Shown here: positions 44,915 through 51,711 of the stretch, one piece after another
Position numbering within the stretch: position 1 is the stretch's first letter
Layout: every line of letters starts with the position of its first letter
Assembly: GCF_019443505.1 (NCBI RefSeq)
Contig: NZ_CP080377.1
Coordinates: 1,426,001 to 1,490,000 of the forward strand
From: Janthinobacterium sp. PAMC25594
GTDB taxonomy: Bacteria; Pseudomonadota; Gammaproteobacteria; Burkholderiales; Burkholderiaceae_D
Direction of reading: 5' to 3'
Length of the DNA stretch: 64,000 bases
Position numbers and translations under genes: made by a program
The notes under the pieces: model-generated
Told to the model about the DNA's origin: nothing
Seen by the model: the letters and a program-made list of their open reading frames with translations, nothing else
Database searches by the model: none

Positions 44915-45067
44915 AAGCAAACATCTTTCCAAGGTCAAAGCGTGACGCCGTGCCCGGCCTTGCCAGGCAAGCTGGCTGCCACGCAGGAATTGTATGCCAT
45001 CATGACAGGAAGGGCACGTTAATTTGACGCGGTGCTTTGCAAGGAATTGACGTGGGGAAACTATCTG

Positions 45068-45649
45068 TCAGGCGGTGCTCGCCTTGACCCCGTCCACCAC
45101 GCCATCATGGAGCGTCGCGTGGCGCTTCTCGGCATAGGCCTTGAGCGAGCGCATCGTTTTGGGAAGCCCTTGCCGCACTTGTCTGGCAACGCCTGGTCCG
45201 AACAGAAAGGCAAGCGCTCCAGTGAACCACACGCGGTGAACGACTGCAGATCCGCCGTCTACGGCAGTAACCGTGTGCTCGAAGTGGATGCGGAACAGGG
45301 GAATGTAGCCCTCGACGGTGAACGAGCGGCCTGCGGTGCGCTCGGTAACCAGCATCGCAATACCCATCCCCTTGTTCGGCACTATCCTGCCCTGTGTTCC
45401 CGCGGCGAATGGCCCATTGAGCCGGGCTTGCTTTGTATCCGGATCCCACAGGTGCCATCGGTCGACTTCGCTCCAGATTTGATCGATGACCGTGGGCGGG
45501 ACGGCAATGTGGATGCTTTCTTCGATATGCGCCAATTTGGGGATCTCCCTATCATTGCGATAAAAGTAACTGCGCCTGCTATCCGCATCGCGCAGTGCCT
45601 GGGTATTGGTCAGCGGCATGGCATTCATCATGTGGAATATCCATGACAA
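45068..45649 (-). CDS. SRPBCC-family (polyketide cyclase-like) protein
   Basis: A 193-residue protein whose residues 40-180 fit the START/SRPBCC lipid-binding fold (AHIEESIHIAVPPTVIDQIWSEVDRWHLWDPD, then FTVEGYIPLFRIHFEHTVTAVDGGSAVVHRVWFTG). It probably binds a small hydrophobic ligand. Starts at 45649 or the in-frame ATG codons at 45631/45628 and 45619 are possible. It marks the left border of the AT-richer island. Confidence 0.75.
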   Translation of the reverse strand: MSWIFHMMNAMPLTNTQALRDADSRRSYFYRNDREIPKLAHIEESIHIAVPPTVIDQIWSEVDRWHLWDPDTKQARLNGPFAAGTQGRIVPNKGMGIAMLVTERTAGRSFTVEGYIPLFRIHFEHTVTAVDGGSAVVHRVWFTGALAFLFGPGVARQVRQGLPKTMRSLKAYAEKRHATLHDGVVDGVKASTA

Positions 45650-45913
45650 CTGCGACAGTCAAAGGATCGTTTTCCGACAGGCACAAAGACAGCCGCTTTT
45701 CCTTTGCATCGATAAAAAATATAGCTGCTGAGATTGCAGGGTACACTGTTTTTTTATCATATAAATAGAGTTAGATTCTGGTTATACTTGTCGCAGACAA
45801 AGCCAGACCATGATGACAGCTTATTTGGTGCCAAGATTAAGGGATGCGCCAGTGAGTAGGAACCACAAGCTGCCGCTCGCCATGACCGTGAGCCCATTGG
45901 ATTTTGAGAAGTT

Positions 45914-46330
45914 ATGAACGCAACACATTGGAGGGTTCAGGAGCTAAATCACCACTCAGCGGATATCGTCTGGCTTGATGCCGAGGGCGCCGGCCGTGCA
46001 TATCATTTAGTACGCCTTCATGATTCGAAGACGCATCCCGGCCTGGACGTTAACACCGTTGACTCCATCGAGCGCTTCGCATTCGGCAATGATGTGGTCA
46101 GCGCGACCAGGTGGTTACGTGCGCGTGTGCCGGGAATTCAGCAGGTCGTAGTTGTGTTTGGAAAAGACGAAAGCTTCGTATGCAACAGTGTGTTCCTGGT
46201 CGAAAATTGGTCGGATATTTTTGTCCCTTCGCGTGACGACGCGATGATCTGTTCGAACGACACGCCGCTTGTCCTGTTTTATTGCCATGAAAATGCATTC
46301 GAGGTAGGGCAGCGAATTGTCTTTGATTAA
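45914..46330 (+). CDS. unrecognised small protein, first gene of the island
   Basis: A 138-residue soluble protein without signal or membrane segment. Features include a central FAFGNDVVSATRWLRARVPGIQQVVVVFG and an acidic C-terminal half (FVPSRDDAMICSNDTPLVLFYCHENAFEVG). I do not recognise its family. It starts after a 264-base gene-free, AT-rich stretch that presumably holds the promoter. The stop is immediately followed by the first short island repeat (46331). Confidence 0.6.
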   Translation: MNATHWRVQELNHHSADIVWLDAEGAGRAYHLVRLHDSKTHPGLDVNTVDSIERFAFGNDVVSATRWLRARVPGIQQVVVVFGKDESFVCNSVFLVENWSDIFVPSRDDAMICSNDTPLVLFYCHENAFEVGQRIVFD

Positions 46331-46359
46331 AGGCCGAGTTCGGCCAGAAGCCGACCTCC
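46331..46359 (+). repeat. island repeat unit a
   Basis: Core GGCCGAGTTCGGCCAGAAGC, beginning directly after the stop codon of the preceding gene. It shares the CGGCCARRAGC core with the other seven units. Confidence 0.55.
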
Positions 46360-46385
46360 ATATGATCCAGTATAAGAAGGGGCGA

Positions 46386-46892
46386 GTGCTCGTGGGAAAT
46401 GCCGTTTTAAGCCGGTTGTCCATGTTGGGCGTTGTTTTCTTGTGCCTTTCGCTGTCGTCCTTGACCAATGCTTCCGAACAACAAAGCGATATGGCATCGA
46501 TCAAGCAGGAGCATTGCGAAGAAAATAGTAATCTTGAGAGTACTTTCTGCATGAGTCGAGAGCTAAAAGAATCCGACACGCGTTTAAACGTCGTCTACAA
46601 GACATTGATGTCTGCGCTTACCAAGCCACGAGGGTTGCAACGCGCGCAACGTGCATGGATTGTTTTCCGCGACGCGGAGTGCAAGTTCCAGAACGCGGCG
46701 ATGCATGGCGCAAGTGGTTACAACTTTTCGATGGACCTGTGTTTGATGCAGCTGACTGAACAGCGCATATCGGTGTTAGAAACCGTTAGGCCCTGCAATG
46801 GATGCGTAGAATTCAAGGATGAGTTTTATAGAACGGGGAAAGGATTCAGCTTACCAGAGCGTAAACGCACTCCTGCTTCGGGCAAGCTATGA
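46386..46892 (+). CDS. LprI-like (DUF1311) secreted protein
   Basis: A 168-residue protein with a signal segment (LSMLGVVFLCLSLSSLTNA) and a LprI/DUF1311 domain: four Cys (EHCEEN, TFCMSRE, ECKFQN, DLCLMQL) and the QRAWIVFRDAECKF core. LprI of Mycobacterium inhibits lysozyme; the bacterial family is broader. GTG 46386 is chosen because AAGAAGGGG lies just before it; ATG 46362 and 46422 are alternatives. It lies between repeats a and b. Confidence 0.72.
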   Translation: MLVGNAVLSRLSMLGVVFLCLSLSSLTNASEQQSDMASIKQEHCEENSNLESTFCMSRELKESDTRLNVVYKTLMSALTKPRGLQRAQRAWIVFRDAECKFQNAAMHGASGYNFSMDLCLMQLTEQRISVLETVRPCNGCVEFKDEFYRTGKGFSLPERKRTPASGKL

Positions 46893-46948
46893 CACGGGGC
46901 GAGGCTTGGTGGCTTTTAGTCCCGTTTTAACGCGCTTCGACTGCTACG

Positions 46949-47010
46949 TCCGCCAAGGGGCGGACTCCGCCTACGGCGGCAACCGATTGAATCCGCAGCC
47001 AAGAGCAGCC
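46949..47010 (+). repeat. island repeat unit b
   Basis: Blocks TCCGCCAAGGGGCGGA, GGCGGCAACCG and CAGCCAAGAGCAGCC appear in the same order as in units d, f and g, with a longer middle. It follows the LprI-like gene. Confidence 0.55.
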
Positions 47011-47070
47011 ATTCGCGTTGACGTGACAATGCGTGACTTTTCTCGCTCGGCATTTCGCTATGCTCATGGG

Positions 47071-47093
47071 CCGCTAGCGGCCAAAAGCGATTC
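47071..47093 (+). repeat. island repeat unit c
   Basis: A short unit with the core GCGGCCAAAAGCGATTC. Only 60 bases separate it from unit b, with no gene between. Confidence 0.5.
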
Positions 47094-47136
47094 ACGCGAC
47101 TATATTAATTGCCATCAGTCCGGTTTGGGGCCATTC

Positions 47137-47559
47137 ATGATTCAAGTAGAAGTTCTCGACGAAAGCGTTTCATGGCCATTCACAATTCCTCCCGGCCGGA
47201 GCAATCACGATGGGGCTCCACCGCGTGTGGCCGAACTCTGCGTAAATGCCAAGTATTGGCATTTAATTGGGTGGAAGGACTGTAGTTCGAACTCCATTGG
47301 AATAGCCAGAAAAAACCAAGTAATTTCAATTGACGTTGAAAACATGGAGGCCTTATCGGTCTGCTTCATGCGCAGAGCGAAGGGTCCTGGCTTTGTTTCA
47401 TTTGAGGTAAGGATGTTGGAAAATCGACGCTCTGTGGTCTTCTTCGCGGCGGACCATTTTAATGAAGATGCATTACTCTGGCTTCAGAGCAATACCAACA
47501 GACTGGCGGCCTTATTTGGTATGCCGATAACAATCAACGACTGTGGCTCGGACTACTAG
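47137..47559 (+). CDS. unrecognised small protein of the island
   Basis: A 140-residue protein, acidic at the N-terminus (MIQVEVLDESVSWPF), with a Cys-containing centre and a C-terminal FFAADHFNEDALLWLQSNTNRLAALFG. No family is recognised and no signal peptide is visible. The frame is open back to 46819, but that stretch crosses repeats b and c, so ATG 47137, preceded by GGGG, is the credible start. Repeat d follows 21 bases after the stop. Confidence 0.55.
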   Translation: MIQVEVLDESVSWPFTIPPGRSNHDGAPPRVAELCVNAKYWHLIGWKDCSSNSIGIARKNQVISIDVENMEALSVCFMRRAKGPGFVSFEVRMLENRRSVVFFAADHFNEDALLWLQSNTNRLAALFGMPITINDCGSDY

Positions 47560-47580
47560 CTATCAGTCCAATCGCGAAGG

Positions 47581-47630
47581 TCCGAATTGGGGCGGAACCT
47601 GCCGATGACAGCAACCGGCCAAGAGCAGCC
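47581..47630 (+). repeat. island repeat unit d (full length)
   Basis: A 50-base unit: TCCGAATTGGGGCGGAACC, then TGCC, then GCAACCGGCCAAGAGCAGCC. It aligns almost base for base with units f and g. Confidence 0.75.
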
Positions 47631-47656
47631 TGTCGAAAATTTATGAATGGGTTTAT

Positions 47657-47959
47657 ATGAACGAGCGCCCAATACCCCCTGCAGCACTAAGAGACGCGGC
47701 TTCGGTTGAAATGCTGCGTGTTTGGGTAGCTGAGAAGCAGTTGCACTGCTCACTGAAGATTGGCATGTACAGAGATGGTGTGGGCATTGATGAGGAATCG
47801 GCCTGGGGGACAATACTTGCAGATGCAGCTAGGCATATATCGAGAGCTCTGCATCCTGAAGATGCAGAAGCGGAAGAGGCCGCACTAGAAAAAATTCGCC
47901 ATCGATTAAACGAGGAACTTGCTGCCCCAACATCCGACGCTAAAGGCAGACTCTTATAA
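47657..47959 (+). CDS. DUF5076-family protein
   Basis: A 100-residue soluble protein. Segments RDAASVEMLRVWVAEKQLHCSLKIGMY, ESAWGTILADAARHIS and LAAPTSDAKGRL match the uncharacterised DUF5076 family as I remember it. No catalytic residues are apparent. ATG 47657 lies 26 bases after repeat d. Repeat e begins at the base after the stop. Confidence 0.7.
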   Translation: MNERPIPPAALRDAASVEMLRVWVAEKQLHCSLKIGMYRDGVGIDEESAWGTILADAARHISRALHPEDAEAEEAALEKIRHRLNEELAAPTSDAKGRLL

Positions 47960-47960
47960 A

Positions 47961-47990
47961 TGCCGGCAGCCGGCCAAAAGCGGACAGACG
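47961..47990 (+). repeat. island repeat unit e
   Basis: A short unit reading GCCGGCAGCCGGCCAAAAGC then GGAC, placed directly after the DUF5076 stop. Confidence 0.55.
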
Positions 47991-48003
47991 ACTTGATAAG
48001 CTT

Positions 48004-48486
48004 GTGCTCTTGGGCGACAACGACGGAAAAGGAATATATATCATGTACCGATTGCTGCCTCAATCTACGGCCGTGTCGCAAGCAATGGGGCGCTGGGCCA
48101 ATTTTGTCGGCGAATTCGACGAAGTCTTTGGATATAGCTATTTGGAAGACGTTTTCTTACGTAATCCTTCCGGTGGCCAATGTGCAGTTCTTTTTACAGT
48201 AAATCCGGAAATCGTTCCACTAGGAATGAATTTAATCACTGCTTTTATCGAATCCTTTCTTGCTCATCCCGAGACCAAGCGATTGATTCCAAAAGAAGAA
48301 AAAGTCGTCGAAATTGAAACTCGACTTGGGTCTCTCGATGATGGCGAGATTTTCATTCCTGTACCTTTTCCATTTATGGGTGGGGACAGCTCAGTCGCGT
48401 CATACAAGAAGGGGAATTTCTTCACATATGTGGAGTTGGTGGGTGGATTGCAGGATATCGAACCGTCTAGAGCGGTGGGAACATAG
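48004..48486 (+). CDS. DUF1851 (Tdi1-type immunity) family protein, possibly N-terminally short
   Basis: A 160-residue protein matching the C-terminal domain of Tdi1-type type VI secretion immunity proteins: FGYSYLEDVFLRNPSGGQCAVLF, LIPKEEKVVEIETRLG, and DDGEIFIPVPFPF. Full members usually carry an N-terminal GAD-like domain of about 80 residues that is missing here. The start is GTG 48004 or ATG 48043 (AAGGAA upstream). If functional, it would protect against a toxin related to Tde1-type DNases; no toxin gene is present. Confidence 0.68.
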   Translation: MLLGDNDGKGIYIMYRLLPQSTAVSQAMGRWANFVGEFDEVFGYSYLEDVFLRNPSGGQCAVLFTVNPEIVPLGMNLITAFIESFLAHPETKRLIPKEEKVVEIETRLGSLDDGEIFIPVPFPFMGGDSSVASYKKGNFFTYVELVGGLQDIEPSRAVGT

Positions 48487-48498
48487 CCTAATGTGTCG

Positions 48499-48548
48499 TC
48501 CGATTTGGCGCGGAACCTGGCAACGACGGCAACCGGCCAGGAGCAGCC
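48499..48548 (+). repeat. island repeat unit f (full length)
   Basis: A 50-base unit: TCCGATTTGGCGCGGAACC, then ACGACGGCAACCGGCCAGGA, then GCAGCC. It follows the DUF1851 gene by 12 bases. Confidence 0.75.
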
Positions 48549-48578
48549 GTTGAAGCGAAACTTAAGAAACTAAAATCA

Positions 48579-48887
48579 ATGATAAAAATTATGGAATATG
48601 AAATACGACTTCAGTTGGGACAGAAAATTTCCCGCATTTCTCTATTTTTTTTCTCGTTAATTTTCTTTGGTTGCGCCTTTGCTCCTGAAGTTGTACCGGT
48701 TCATGTAAGGTTTTTTTCTTTGGCGCTATCGGCACTATTTTCTTGCGTAGGGAGCAACAACTATGCTTTGGTTTCACCGACGAAAAGCTTGCAATGGAAG
48801 TTCATGCCACCGATACCAAGAGCTTTGTTTCTCGCTTTTTTTCAGTTGCTAGTATTGTCGACTGTGATGATGTTCTTGGATGTTTAA
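48579..48887 (+). CDS. small membrane protein of the island, unrecognised
   Basis: A 102-residue hydrophobic protein with three likely membrane segments: about residues 19-37, 43-60 and 80-100. It is rich in Phe and Ser and has no known motif. ATG 48579 or ATG 48591 could start it. Its base composition is markedly AT-rich compared with the flanking chromosome. It lies between repeats f and g. Confidence 0.55.
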   Translation: MIKIMEYEIRLQLGQKISRISLFFFSLIFFGCAFAPEVVPVHVRFFSLALSALFSCVGSNNYALVSPTKSLQWKFMPPIPRALFLAFFQLLVLSTVMMFLDV

Positions 48888-48966
48888 ACTGCCACGAGTT
48901 CACTTGACACTGCTGATTTGTTCATAAGCTTTGGCTGGGCGACAGTTACAAACGGTCAGTAAAGCA

Positions 48967-49014
48967 TCCAATGGGGCGGAGCCTGCCAACGACGGCAACC
49001 GGCCAGAAGCGGTC
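48967..49014 (+). repeat. island repeat unit g (full length)
   Basis: A 48-base unit: TCCAATGGGGCGGAGCC, then TGCCAACGACGGCAACCGG, then CCAGAAGCGGTC. It follows the membrane protein gene. Confidence 0.75.
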
Positions 49015-49056
49015 ATACGCGTTCTATTCTAAAACTGAAGCCTTGCAAGGAAACAC

Positions 49057-49752
49057 TTGGATTTCACAGAACTTGCTTTTAAGAGGATCGATGGATCCTG
49101 GATAAAGACACTCGACTACGTCGATTGGGCAAATGAGTTGCTGGAAGGCGGTTGTGATGCGCCTAGCATTTGGGAACTCGCTGTTTGCCGCTGGGACGAC
49201 TACGTCGATTCGGATCAAGTTGAACGATTATTTCAGTCATCCATAAACGAACTAAGATTGGAACTGCCGAGCGACTGGTACAGCGCTCTATGTACTTACT
49301 CTAGTAGCATTTGCCAAAAGATGCTTCAAGGCCTACTTATGCCTTGGGAATGCGTGCAGGAAATGCTAACAATTTCTGATGATTACAATGAACCTTATAT
49401 CCACTGGATCTGGCTGGATCTCGTAAACGATCTCGATCCAGCAAAAGCTCAAACCGACTGCATAAAATTTAACGGAGCGCTTGACCTAAATAAACCCGAA
49501 GAGTGCATCCAGACAGTCGCTCAGCAATTCGTTTTCCTCTGTTCTGTATCTCTACCTGAAAGATTTCCGTGGATCTGGCGCTGCGAAATGTGCCAGGCAC
49601 TTAGCGAGGAAAACACATTTACGCAAACGAAGACATGCACCTGTACCCGCTGTGGGGGCATCGTTACAATGAAAAATATGCGATTTTTCGAAAATCGAGC
49701 CGCATTGGTGAAAAGTCTCGACGGTGGCGAAAAAGTCGGCGAAAAATGTTGA
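49057..49752 (+). CDS. zinc-ribbon protein of the island
   Basis: A 231-residue soluble acidic protein. The N-terminus (DYVDWANELLEGGCDAPSIWELA) resembles the helical region of several small predicted immunity proteins; this is a weak resemblance. The C-terminal 60 residues carry a zinc ribbon of two Cys pairs (CEMC, and CTRC after CTC). It starts with TTG 49057, six bases after AAGG. Unit h of the repeat family follows its stop by 4 bases. Confidence 0.62.
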   Translation: MDFTELAFKRIDGSWIKTLDYVDWANELLEGGCDAPSIWELAVCRWDDYVDSDQVERLFQSSINELRLELPSDWYSALCTYSSSICQKMLQGLLMPWECVQEMLTISDDYNEPYIHWIWLDLVNDLDPAKAQTDCIKFNGALDLNKPEECIQTVAQQFVFLCSVSLPERFPWIWRCEMCQALSEENTFTQTKTCTCTRCGGIVTMKNMRFFENRAALVKSLDGGEKVGEKC

Positions 49753-49756
49753 GCTG

Positions 49757-49785
49757 TGTCCGTTTTGGGGCGCAAGCGGACTCAC
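49757..49785 (+). repeat. island repeat unit h (right end)
   Basis: A shortened unit: GTGTCCGTTTTGGGGCGCAA, then GCGGAC. It follows the last island gene, and the GC-rich backbone resumes after it. Confidence 0.5.
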
Positions 49786-49938
49786 GCGCCCGACAGTGAA
49801 GCAGACACCCTGACTGCTGCGGAACCGGACGGCGCCGCCCACCTTCCCCTCCGCCCTGCCAGCCCGAGCAACTTTACTGACACTCGCCACAGCTGCAGGA
49901 CATCAACGCTCCCGCATAGGACAGTGATACCACCAAGG

Positions 49939-49959
49939 AAAAACCCCGGCGTACCGGGG
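49939..49959 (-). terminator. intrinsic terminator of the chemotaxis receptor gene
   Basis: On the minus strand, CCCCGG-TACG-CCGGGG is followed by five T, 13 bases past the receptor stop. This is a clear Rho-independent terminator. Confidence 0.8.
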
Positions 49960-49971
49960 CAGTCACAAGGT

Positions 49972-51618
49972 TTAACCGCGGGCGCTGCGGCCTGGCAGCG
50001 CCAGGCGGCGGCTGGCGGCGCTTGAAATCGGGGTCGGCAAGCCGCCCGCCACTTTCAGCGCTTTCCCCTGGGCGTCGCCACGCAGGCGGAATACGGCCAC
50101 CACGTCGACCAGTTCCACGGCGCGCTCTTGCAGCGAGGATGCGGCGGCGGCCGCCTCTTCCACCAGGGCCGCGTTTTGCTGGGTCACCTGGTCCATCTGC
50201 GAAATGGCCTGGTTCACCTGCTCGATGCCGGCGCTTTGCTCGTGGCTGGCGTTGGCGATGTCGCCCATGATGTCCGTCACGCGGCGAATGCTGGCGACGA
50301 TTTCTTCCATGGTCGCGCCCGCCTGGTCGACCAGCACGCTGCCCGTGTTGACTTTATCCACGGAATCCTCGATCAAGCCCTTGATTTCCTTGGCGGCCGC
50401 CGCCGAGCGCTGCGCCAGGTTGCGCACCTCGGTGGCGACCACGGCGAAGCCACGGCCCTGCTCGCCCGCGCGCGCCGCTTCCACGGCCGCATTCAGCGCC
50501 AAAATGTTGGTTTGGAAGGCAATGCCGTCGATCACGCCGATAATGTCGGCGATCTTCTTCGCCGACTCATTGATGGACCCCATCGTGCCCACCACTTGCG
50601 CCACCACGGCGCCGCCCTTGCGGGCCACGTCCGAAGCGGACACGGCCAAGGTATTCGCCTGGCGCGCATTGTCCGTGTTCTGGCGCACGGCCGAGGTCAG
50701 CTCTTCCAGGCTGGAAGCGGTTTCTTCCAGCGACGACGCCTGCTGCTCGGTGCGCACGGACAAGTCCGCATTGCCGGCGGAAATCTGCGCGGCCGCCACG
50801 CTGACCGTATCGGCCGAGGTGCGCACGGTAGCGATCACGTCGACGATGCGTTCCAGGAAGTTATTGAAGGCGGTGGCCGTGCGGCCCACTTCATCCATGC
50901 GCTCCACGGGCATGGCGGCGGACAGGTCCAGCGAGGCGCTGACGCGTTCCAAGGTGTGTTCGATATTGCCCAGGCCGCCGCTGATGGTGCGGTAGATATG
51001 CCAGGCCAGGGCGCCCGTCAGCAGCACGGCCACACCGAGCACGGCCAGCATGGTGTTGAACGCCGTGTCGTAGGCGGCCAGGCTTTCCGCTTTTACATCG
51101 TCGACCAGTTTGTTGTTGTAGGCGATATGGTCATCCATGCTTTTTTTCGCGGCGGCGGCCGTGATGGCCAGCGGCGTGCCGGCCAGCAAGGTGGCGCGCA
51201 CGCCATCCATGTCGCCCGCGTAGGCGGCGGCAAAGAATGGCACCAGCGCGCGGCGGTACGCTTCCATGGCGGCCTGGTCGGCGTCGAGCATCTTGCTGTC
51301 CGTCGCGTCGTACAGGCGCTCGGCGCGGTAGGTGGCGATGACCTTGTCGAAATTCGTGTTGGCCTCGGCCACGGCCTTGTCCAGCGCCGTCTTGTCGGTC
51401 AGGTTCGAGAATACGGACAGGCGGTAGCCGGCCAGACGCGAATCGGCCAGGAAACCCTTGGCCGCATTCAAGCCCTGGATACTGGGGATGATGCGGTTTT
51501 GCACGGTGTCAAAACGTTCCTGGGCGCGCTGCAGCTGGATGGCGCCGCCGGCGCCCAGCAATAGCAGGGCCAGCAAGGCGATGGTGAGGGTCAGGATTAA
51601 TTGCTTGGTGATATTCAT
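49972..51618 (-). CDS. methyl-accepting chemotaxis protein
   Basis: A 548-residue receptor. A membrane segment at residues 6-28 is followed by a periplasmic four-helix-bundle sensor (about 29-185), a second segment (188-208), HAMP, and a long signalling helix pair. The hairpin tip ([31 protein letters not shown]) is intact. The C-terminus carries no CheR-binding pentapeptide. ATG 51618 is the chosen start. No che genes are adjacent, so it feeds a chemotaxis system elsewhere. The ligand is unknown. Confidence 0.92.
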
Positions 51619-51711
51619 GGTGTTCACAGTCAAAAAAGCAGCCTGGTAGGGCCAGGCGGGATGAGTAGCTGCCGATCAGGTGGCCGGAGACCGGTTGCAA
51701 ACGGCGCGAGC

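Follow-up and report, generated by a model that had tools for sequence, protein, structure and literature searches.

An integron-like array of small-gene cassettes with its own repeat site in Janthinobacterium sp. PAMC25594

Integrons are the textbook way for bacteria to stockpile and shuffle single genes. In a stretch of 64,000 nucleotides from Janthinobacterium sp. PAMC25594 (positions 1426001-1490000 of the 6.55-Mb single-contig genome NZ_CP080377.1, hereafter the window), seven small genes on one strand alternate with units of a short repeat built around CGGCCARRAGC, which raises the question of whether single genes are collected and exchanged here by something other than an integron, and at which point of the repeat they are joined. 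The best reading is a cassette system that resembles an integron but has a site of its own, and that fails two defining tests of an integron, those of box sequences and integrase. A site-specific recombinase, probably a tyrosine recombinase, likely excises and inserts the cassettes, with exchange within the segment CGGCCA, and this reading is given a probability of about 0.7. If it is true, a reservoir of small genes, immunity-type genes included, would be missed by attC-based searches, and the short exchange segment together with the single-core and double-core forms of the site makes the mechanism directly testable in laboratory strains.

A repeat unit behind each of seven unrelated genes

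Between positions 45914 and 49752 of the window, seven open reading frames (ORFs) on the plus strand, g1 to g7, encode proteins of 138, 176, 140, 100, 147, 102 and 231 aa from the chosen starts, and a repeat unit, its limits drawn by hand, lies 1-76 nt past the stop of each of them. A sequence-only reading of this stretch had described seven unrelated, co-oriented genes each followed within 1-80 bases by a repeat, a core tied to the stretch, a composition richer in AT than the flanks and no integrase in the window, and all of these points were borne out. The seven genes are mutually unrelated. The exact CGGCCARRAGC motif occurs six times in the window, always on the plus strand and inside 46341-49010; with up to one mismatch it occurs 32 times against 11.4 expected, a count reached by none of 100 shuffles. 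GC content is 44-54% in the array stretch compared with mostly 60-70% in the flanks, and none of the 20 places in the genome that match PF00589 (E 0.001) falls inside the window. The same reading had units d, f and g aligning almost base for base, which proved too strong, as units f and g are only 86% and 73% identical to unit d. Only part of the repeat is present in units a, e and h, and unit c has an insertion.

The 69 unique full-length units have the consensus GTCCGCTTT-GGGGCG-GAACCTGCC-AAC-GACGGCAAC-CGGCCA-GAAGCGGAC, a 9-6-9-3-9-6-9 layout, and the full site can be written R''(GTCCGCTTT)-GGGGCG-L''-short loop-L'-CGGCCA-R'(GAAGCGGAC). Information per position over these units is highest in CGGCCA (1.81 bits), followed by GGGGCG (1.42 bits) and the arms (0.94-1.39 bits). 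The dyad of the consensus (16 of 25) was equalled in about 1 in 10,000 shuffles. The short form found at the array end is a single 9-6-9 core, GTCCGCTTT-GGGGCG-AAAGCGGAC.

The repeat is present in most of the genus genomes examined. A covariance model of seven units from this genome, R1, matched nine places in the same genome at E 1e-4 or better, where the units are scattered over about eight places. At E 0.01 it had a match in 25 of 36 congeneric genomes and in one of 24 genomes from other orders, the latter marginal (0.0047). In a family sample searched at E 1e-4, 41 of 294 genomes were matched: 23 of the 27 genus members and 18 of the 267 other genomes. Sixty loci were fetched, 43 by a match to the unit model or pattern and 17 by a flank gene; counting the window, 41 sources gave 127 matches at E 1, and 20 sources gave 19 at E 0.5. 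Units in the fetched loci also flank small genes, as had been predicted, and their placement is not random: among the strong units (n=88, scoring about 31 bits or higher, with ORFs called mechanically), 68 lie no more than 100 nt past a stop on the same strand (median 38), compared with 10.5% for random positions. For 74 of 87 strong units the gene that follows has the same strand, and strands are mixed in only one of the 28 loci that have more than one.

Whole-cassette differences and sharp joints

The locus is a platform on which cassettes are gained and lost as units with sharp joints, in agreement with the gain and loss that had been proposed for it. Of 40 genus genomes, 23 carry the flank gene (E 1e-30), and both flanks were found in 17 loci, window counted, which form the syntenic set. 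Gene content across this set is far from identical: relatives differ by whole gene-plus-repeat blocks, and the interval between the flanks ranges from 174 bp (genome G008) to 6190 bp (G015). In G024, g1 and g7 enclose one other block where the window has g2 to g6, and this middle block is 99% identical to a block at a different locus of G020. In G015, g1 is directly joined to g6, and the window is about 2.19 kb longer there (2182 bp between the aligned pieces). Comparison of G019 with G029 at the syntenic locus showed about 1.04 kb extra in G019, with the joint GGGGCG/AAAGC between GGGGCG and AAAGCGGAC. On the side of the chemotaxis gene, the array ends with GGGGCG followed by similar host sequence in 9 of the 17 loci, behind several different last genes.

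Copies of a block that stand in different neighbourhoods lose similarity at the repeat. In 28 left edge pairs aligned on the core, the 38 positions to the left of CGGCCA had a mean identity of 0.40 (range of single positions 0.18-0.89), and identity was 0.71-1.0 from the first C of CGGCCA rightwards. In 29 right pairs it stayed at 0.9-1.0 across CGGCCA and dropped to 0.48 and then 0.38 over the two letters that follow; the conserved remainder of the core was mixed, and past the core identity was about 0.3. All of these pairs were filtered from 401 alignments. The clearest example is the g5 cassette, which recurs on plasmid p356839 of J. lividum EIF2 with 94% identity over window positions 47975-48538, the match running from the final C of CGGCC in unit e to the same base in unit f. 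A second class of edge lies at GGGGCG, as in the G019/G029 comparison and in a 0.95-kb case between the plasmid and G032, and the two edge classes fall on the two 6-bp segments of the site. The G015, G019/G029 and plasmid/G032 cases were chosen out of 96 candidate places (60 of the 96 listed), many of which are ordinary host differences.

Since copies of several cassettes in other arrays, other genomes and the plasmid match between two cores and diverge just past them, site-specific excision and insertion is the likely route of their movement. Cassettes would be excised and inserted by strand exchange inside the CGGCCA of double-core sites, and the GGGGCG edges at the single-core array end would reflect exchange in the other 6-bp segment. 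Site-specific exchange within a 6-bp overlap is a hallmark of tyrosine recombinases, and the edges would accordingly mark the crossover points of an enzyme of this type using the 6-bp segment as its overlap.

Some cores are preceded by a leader. The motif YTATGCT stands up to 40 nt upstream in 14 of 167 genus cores (window counted) and in 6 of 38 cores from other genera, with a chance of 0.2% per stretch searched. A gene-less, leader-like block in the array may supply a promoter, and, judged by its conservation, the leader block is perhaps a mobile promoter. A promoter scan of the array found 2 against 4.4 expected and did not reveal one in this block.

Several observations weigh against the site-specific reading. 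Excised circles or recombination were not observed. The edge pairs are non-independent, 11 of the right pairs representing one g1 end and 7 one leader-type end, and two of the left pairs, both at L124 position 37, arise as artefacts of the locus edge. Identity over the 6 bp is not strict: some junctions read CAGCCA or CAGTCA instead of CGGCCA, and on the plasmid the left edge of the g5 copy has CAGTCA. The middle 21 bp travels with the upstream cassette in L105/L132 and L099/L156 but not in L117/L124, and because of this inconsistent inheritance one crossover point does not explain all edges. The 9-6-9 division was read off the consensus afterwards, and GGGGCG is barely more conserved than the L' arm (1.42 versus 1.39 bits). 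The R'' and R' arms match 5.49 within a unit and 5.35 between different units, a small gain that would be expected if the left and right arms derive from neighbouring cassettes; covariation of the arms within a cassette or unit was not seen at the small counts available. Single-strand folding of units d, f and g stayed at shuffle level on both strands (z -0.21 to 0.38), and an attC-like folded mechanism is therefore not supported; the short unit h gave z -0.94 and -1.79. As to sampling, the 43 of 60 loci taken by unit match were preselected, R1 was trained on units of its own genome, and 11 of 36 congeners have no R1 match.

Related sites occur beyond the genus. Twelve pattern-chosen sites, ten from genus g42, one from g64 and one from a Pseudomonas record, read GTCCGCTTT-GGGTCG-GAAGCGGAC-N10-GTCTGCAAC-CGGCCA-GGAGCGGAC, with two complete cores in a 9-6-9-10-9-6-9 layout. 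A sequence model of these sites matched 17 of 398 phylum genomes at E 1e-4, two in the family, 12 in family f33 and three in three more families. Among at least 80 loci, the same edge was seen by eye in three record pairs (L173/L234, L170/L180 and L166/L203, from Pseudomonas and a gammaproteobacterium, two betaproteobacterial metagenome-assembled genomes, and Caballeronia and Paraburkholderia), each sharing DNA to GGCCA or a few letters past and then diverging. As a tentative extension, with odds somewhat below even, the repeat may belong to a second cassette system apart from integrons, with a Cre-like or other non-IntI tyrosine recombinase, a double 9-6-9 site, CGGCCA exchange and mobile promoter cassettes, spread over Oxalobacteraceae, Pseudomonas and other Beta- and Gammaproteobacteria.

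Recombinase candidate, rival mechanisms and known systems

A Cre-like tyrosine recombinase gene at G000:603440-604525, one of the 20 PF00589 places of the PAMC25594 genome, was considered as the source of the enzyme, a refinement of the site-specific reading that is doubtful at present. The gene is present in 36 of 40 genus genomes; three of the four genomes without it have a completeness of 82-88%, and the fourth, G021, with 98%, also lacks a unit match. In the 35 genomes examined over as much as 8 kb downstream of its 3' end, 17 strict cores, in 10 genomes, point towards it and none lies on the other strand, and short-form junctions were seen there by eye in several genomes. The nearest solved structures of the protein are those of Cre (E 1.8e-9; 17 of 18 matches are Cre or Tre). 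R173, K199, H280, R283, W306 and Y315, presumed to be the catalytic positions by analogy with Cre, are invariant in 29 homologues. Against the candidate stands its distribution: outside the genus, at E 1e-60, it occurs in 4 of 18 unit-bearing genomes versus 50 of 249 others, and 12 of the remaining 14 unit-bearing genomes have no homologue at E 1e-10. Twenty Cre-like loci of other genera gave two convergent core matches, judged to be chance, and three on the upstream side. The gene is also found in genus genomes without an R1 match, such as G009, G013 and G016, while the units of most arrays lie far from it; a profile of the candidate found it in three array loci only, with no kin near the other array loci, the other-genus loci or those of f33. 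With some ten hotspots and 20 tyrosine recombinases in a genome, one chance adjacency is plausible (about 7% by the analysts' own estimate). In the family sample, 81 of 294 genomes carry the gene, and its 3' flank is variable and often AT-rich. Repeats were also sought in the flanks of four recombinases from other genera, where no alternative family was evident. The neighbouring gene was read as KfrA-like, and NCBIfam gave only coiled-coil matches below the cut-off for it.

Cassettes could also be exchanged through short homologies only, by homologous or homology-facilitated illegitimate recombination after DNA uptake, as proposed for the orphan immunity arrays of Vibrio cholerae. Such recombination is argued for the type VI secretion system (T6SS) arrays of that species in PMC5361080, and the syntenic flanks common to the present loci would allow recombination in the flanks to swap whole arrays. 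Homologous exchange would, however, scatter the edges over the roughly 40 conserved bases of a unit, and the sharp edges therefore count against it; they lie at most a few bases from the core at either end, in arrays that share no other DNA (the plasmid and different chromosomal loci). This explanation is considered unlikely. Like the present array, those of V. cholerae line up small genes of immunity type and vary from strain to strain. Their position, however, is behind T6SS effector modules, and displacement of effectors is the explanation given for them (PMC5361080); in the present array the genes come with a repeat of their own, and an immunity signature is absent from most of them.

Less probable still are small transposon-like blocks with imperfect inverted ends (GAAGCGGAC...GTCCGCTTT) that are moved by a transposase, for example of the REP-type Y1 family. 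The two consensus arms are indeed inverted copies of each other, Y1_Tnp is found in 35 of 40 genus genomes, and IS30-type transposase genes stand near some arrays. At E 1e-6, however, Y1_Tnp was not found in G015, G016, G018, G020 and G032, and as G015, G020 and G032 are rich in units (13, 6 and 10), a Y1 transposase does not fit as the motor. Blocks also have nearly always one orientation per locus, and the edge is an internal segment instead of an outer end. REP and BIME elements, associated with RAYT, are short palindromic intergenic repeats downstream of genes, which is equally true of the units described here; unlike them, these units bound a travelling block and occur in three unit-rich genomes in which Y1 transposase was not found.

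The closest comparison is with integrons, whose attC sites have two box pairs, short spacers and a variable middle. The present site, with its two inverted box pairs and short spacers, follows the attC order R''-spacer-L''-loop-L'-spacer-R'. Small-gene cassettes mostly in one orientation, one site per cassette, similar cargo, arrays on chromosomes and plasmids, and fixed ends with a variable interior at the syntenic locus are further likenesses. The differences begin with the two defining features. A GTTRRRY/RYYYAAC pair was found in one unit out of 141, where shuffles gave an expectation of 0.75, and the integron integrase (integrase_gron, TIGR02249) was found over its cut-off in none of the 40 genus genomes; matches below the threshold cover mostly the C-terminal part, as they do in 13 of 14 control genomes. 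In addition, the three sites d, f and g are not predicted to fold, and arrays stand at several scattered places instead of forming one array beside an integrase.

The short form, a single core with inverted arms and a 6-bp centre, is reminiscent of dif and lox sites, whose centres have 6 bp and 8 bp, respectively. The internal sites here are double cores, unlike those of Cre/loxP, dif/XerCD and pdif, and to our knowledge the arm sequences are unrelated to the dif and lox arms, for which no dedicated search was made.

Clusters of attC sites lacking an integrase are termed CALIN in PMC9892861, from which the attC box names were also taken. That the units are true attC sites with strongly diverged boxes, left behind by a lost integrase and mobilised by a visiting IntI, would fit the attC-like layout, the arrays without a neighbouring integrase and the kind of cargo (GNATs, glyoxalases, unknowns), but by box sequence the sites are not attC, and with the integrase scan and the folding of units d, f and g also against it, this account is very improbable.

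A literature search that included the motif letters gave no recognised description of the repeat within its coverage, which leaves subscription journals and preprints mostly outside; a text match by motif letters turned out to be an unrelated cancer paper. An Rfam scan of window positions 45000-51000 at E 1 gave no match, nor did the array in a phage comparison.

Cargo and features of the arrays

The cargo of the arrays is mixed and not mainly defence. The 151 unit-adjacent ORFs form 118 clusters with a median of 143 aa, and 89% are shorter than 250 aa. In the 117 proteins scanned (cluster representatives minus eight ORFs that were short, doubtful or re-started, plus the seven genes of the window, four of which stand beside a cluster mate), Pfam gave 68 families in all (25 of the 68 listed), with up to four members for GNAT, three for glyoxalase, three for Tdi1 and two for LprI, and many proteins were unknowns. 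Two of the three Tdi1 matches represent one cluster, as do both LprI matches. PADLOC gave seven families with one member each. The suggestion that the array is a reservoir of immunity or defence genes stands in part: a Tdi1-family gene and a lysozyme inhibitor gene lie in the window, but few immunity or defence families occur in the cargo as a whole. One array protein is a family match to the aminoglycoside phosphotransferase APH(3')-I (NCBIfam, E 1.2e-139).

The cassettes had been described as carrying single genes, and most do carry small ones, but the gene-less block and a two-gene block of 2.6 kb depart from this. The latter, a LysR regulator with an FAD monooxygenase, lies directly past a unit in L114, L122 and L125 with 96-98% identity, and a fourth copy, in L155, has about 83%. 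This gene pair, of 408 and 324 aa and at equal distance past a unit in three loci, was first considered as an autonomous mobile module, a reading rejected once the two were identified as an FAD monooxygenase and a LysR regulator.

On the J. lividum EIF2 plasmid with the g5 copy (L283; NZ_CP049829.1, 321971-336521), about eleven small co-oriented genes in a row carry the same repeat. A gene annotated for contact-dependent-inhibition (CDI) immunity and a Tdi1 gene belong to this row, and WP_176386522.1 occurs in it twice, one copy ending in a short junction and the other in a long one. In the PAMC25594 genome itself, g6 has a second copy at 962 kb with 90% identity over 421 bp. The features of the array are collected in the table, in which the names of the two flank genes are putative and come from reading of the sequence.

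Table. Genes and repeat units of the array, its flanks, and the Cre-like recombinase with its neighbour (positions in the window, or in L284 where so marked)
Feature	Position	Strand	Remark
SRPBCC-type gene, flank	45068-45649	-	putative
g1, 138 aa, first array gene	45914-46330	+	in 12 of 17 syntenic loci, window counted; no family above cut-off
Unit a, single core GGCCGAGTT-CGGCCA-GAAGCCGAC	46332-46355	+	5' junction; different cassettes after it in other genomes
g2, LprI-type lysozyme inhibitor	46362-46892	+	PF07007, 1.5e-18
Unit c, GTCCGCCAA-GGGGCG arm, insertion ending CGATTGAATCCG, core CAGCCA-AGAGCAGCC	46947-47010	+	R1 E 0.057
Gene-less leader-like block (GTGACAATG...CTATGCT) between cores c and c2	47002-47077	+	
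Unit c2, core CGGCCA-AAAGCGATT at 47078	47067-47092	+	
g3, 140 aa	47137-47559	+	no family above cut-off
Unit d, full double-core site	47580-47630	+	71.9 bits
g4, DUF5076	47657-47959	+	PF16826, 5.2e-29
Unit e, partial, core CGGCCA-AAAGCGGAC at 47971	47962-47985	+	
g5, T6SS immunity protein Tdi1 C-terminal family	48043-48486	+	PF08906, 3.4e-8
Unit f, full double-core site	48498-48548	+	71.0 bits
g6, 102 aa	48579-48887	+	no family above cut-off
Unit g, full double-core site	48964-49014	+	66.5 bits
g7, 231 aa, last gene	49057-49752	+	no family above cut-off; same place in genome G024
Unit h, short single core GTCCGTTTT-GGGGCG-CAAGCGGAC	49758-49781	+	array end
Methyl-accepting chemotaxis gene, flank	49972-51633	-	putative
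Cre-like recombinase	L284 4441-5529	+	
KfrA-like gene	L284 3272-4321	-	by reading

Three loci, L140, L151 and L152, have in the gap between the syntenic flanks an ORF instead of an array, and its start was read as that of a putative P-loop kinase-like protein. IS30-family transposase genes stand near arrays at L113 10405-11649 and L125 1466-2635, and ORFs related to IS30 transposases cluster with them in L127, L132 and L135. In genus g35, a third subtype of the site was seen at L375 6349, 7123 and 8914, with GAGTACAATCGGCAG before CGGCCA and a -10-like hexamer inside the site.

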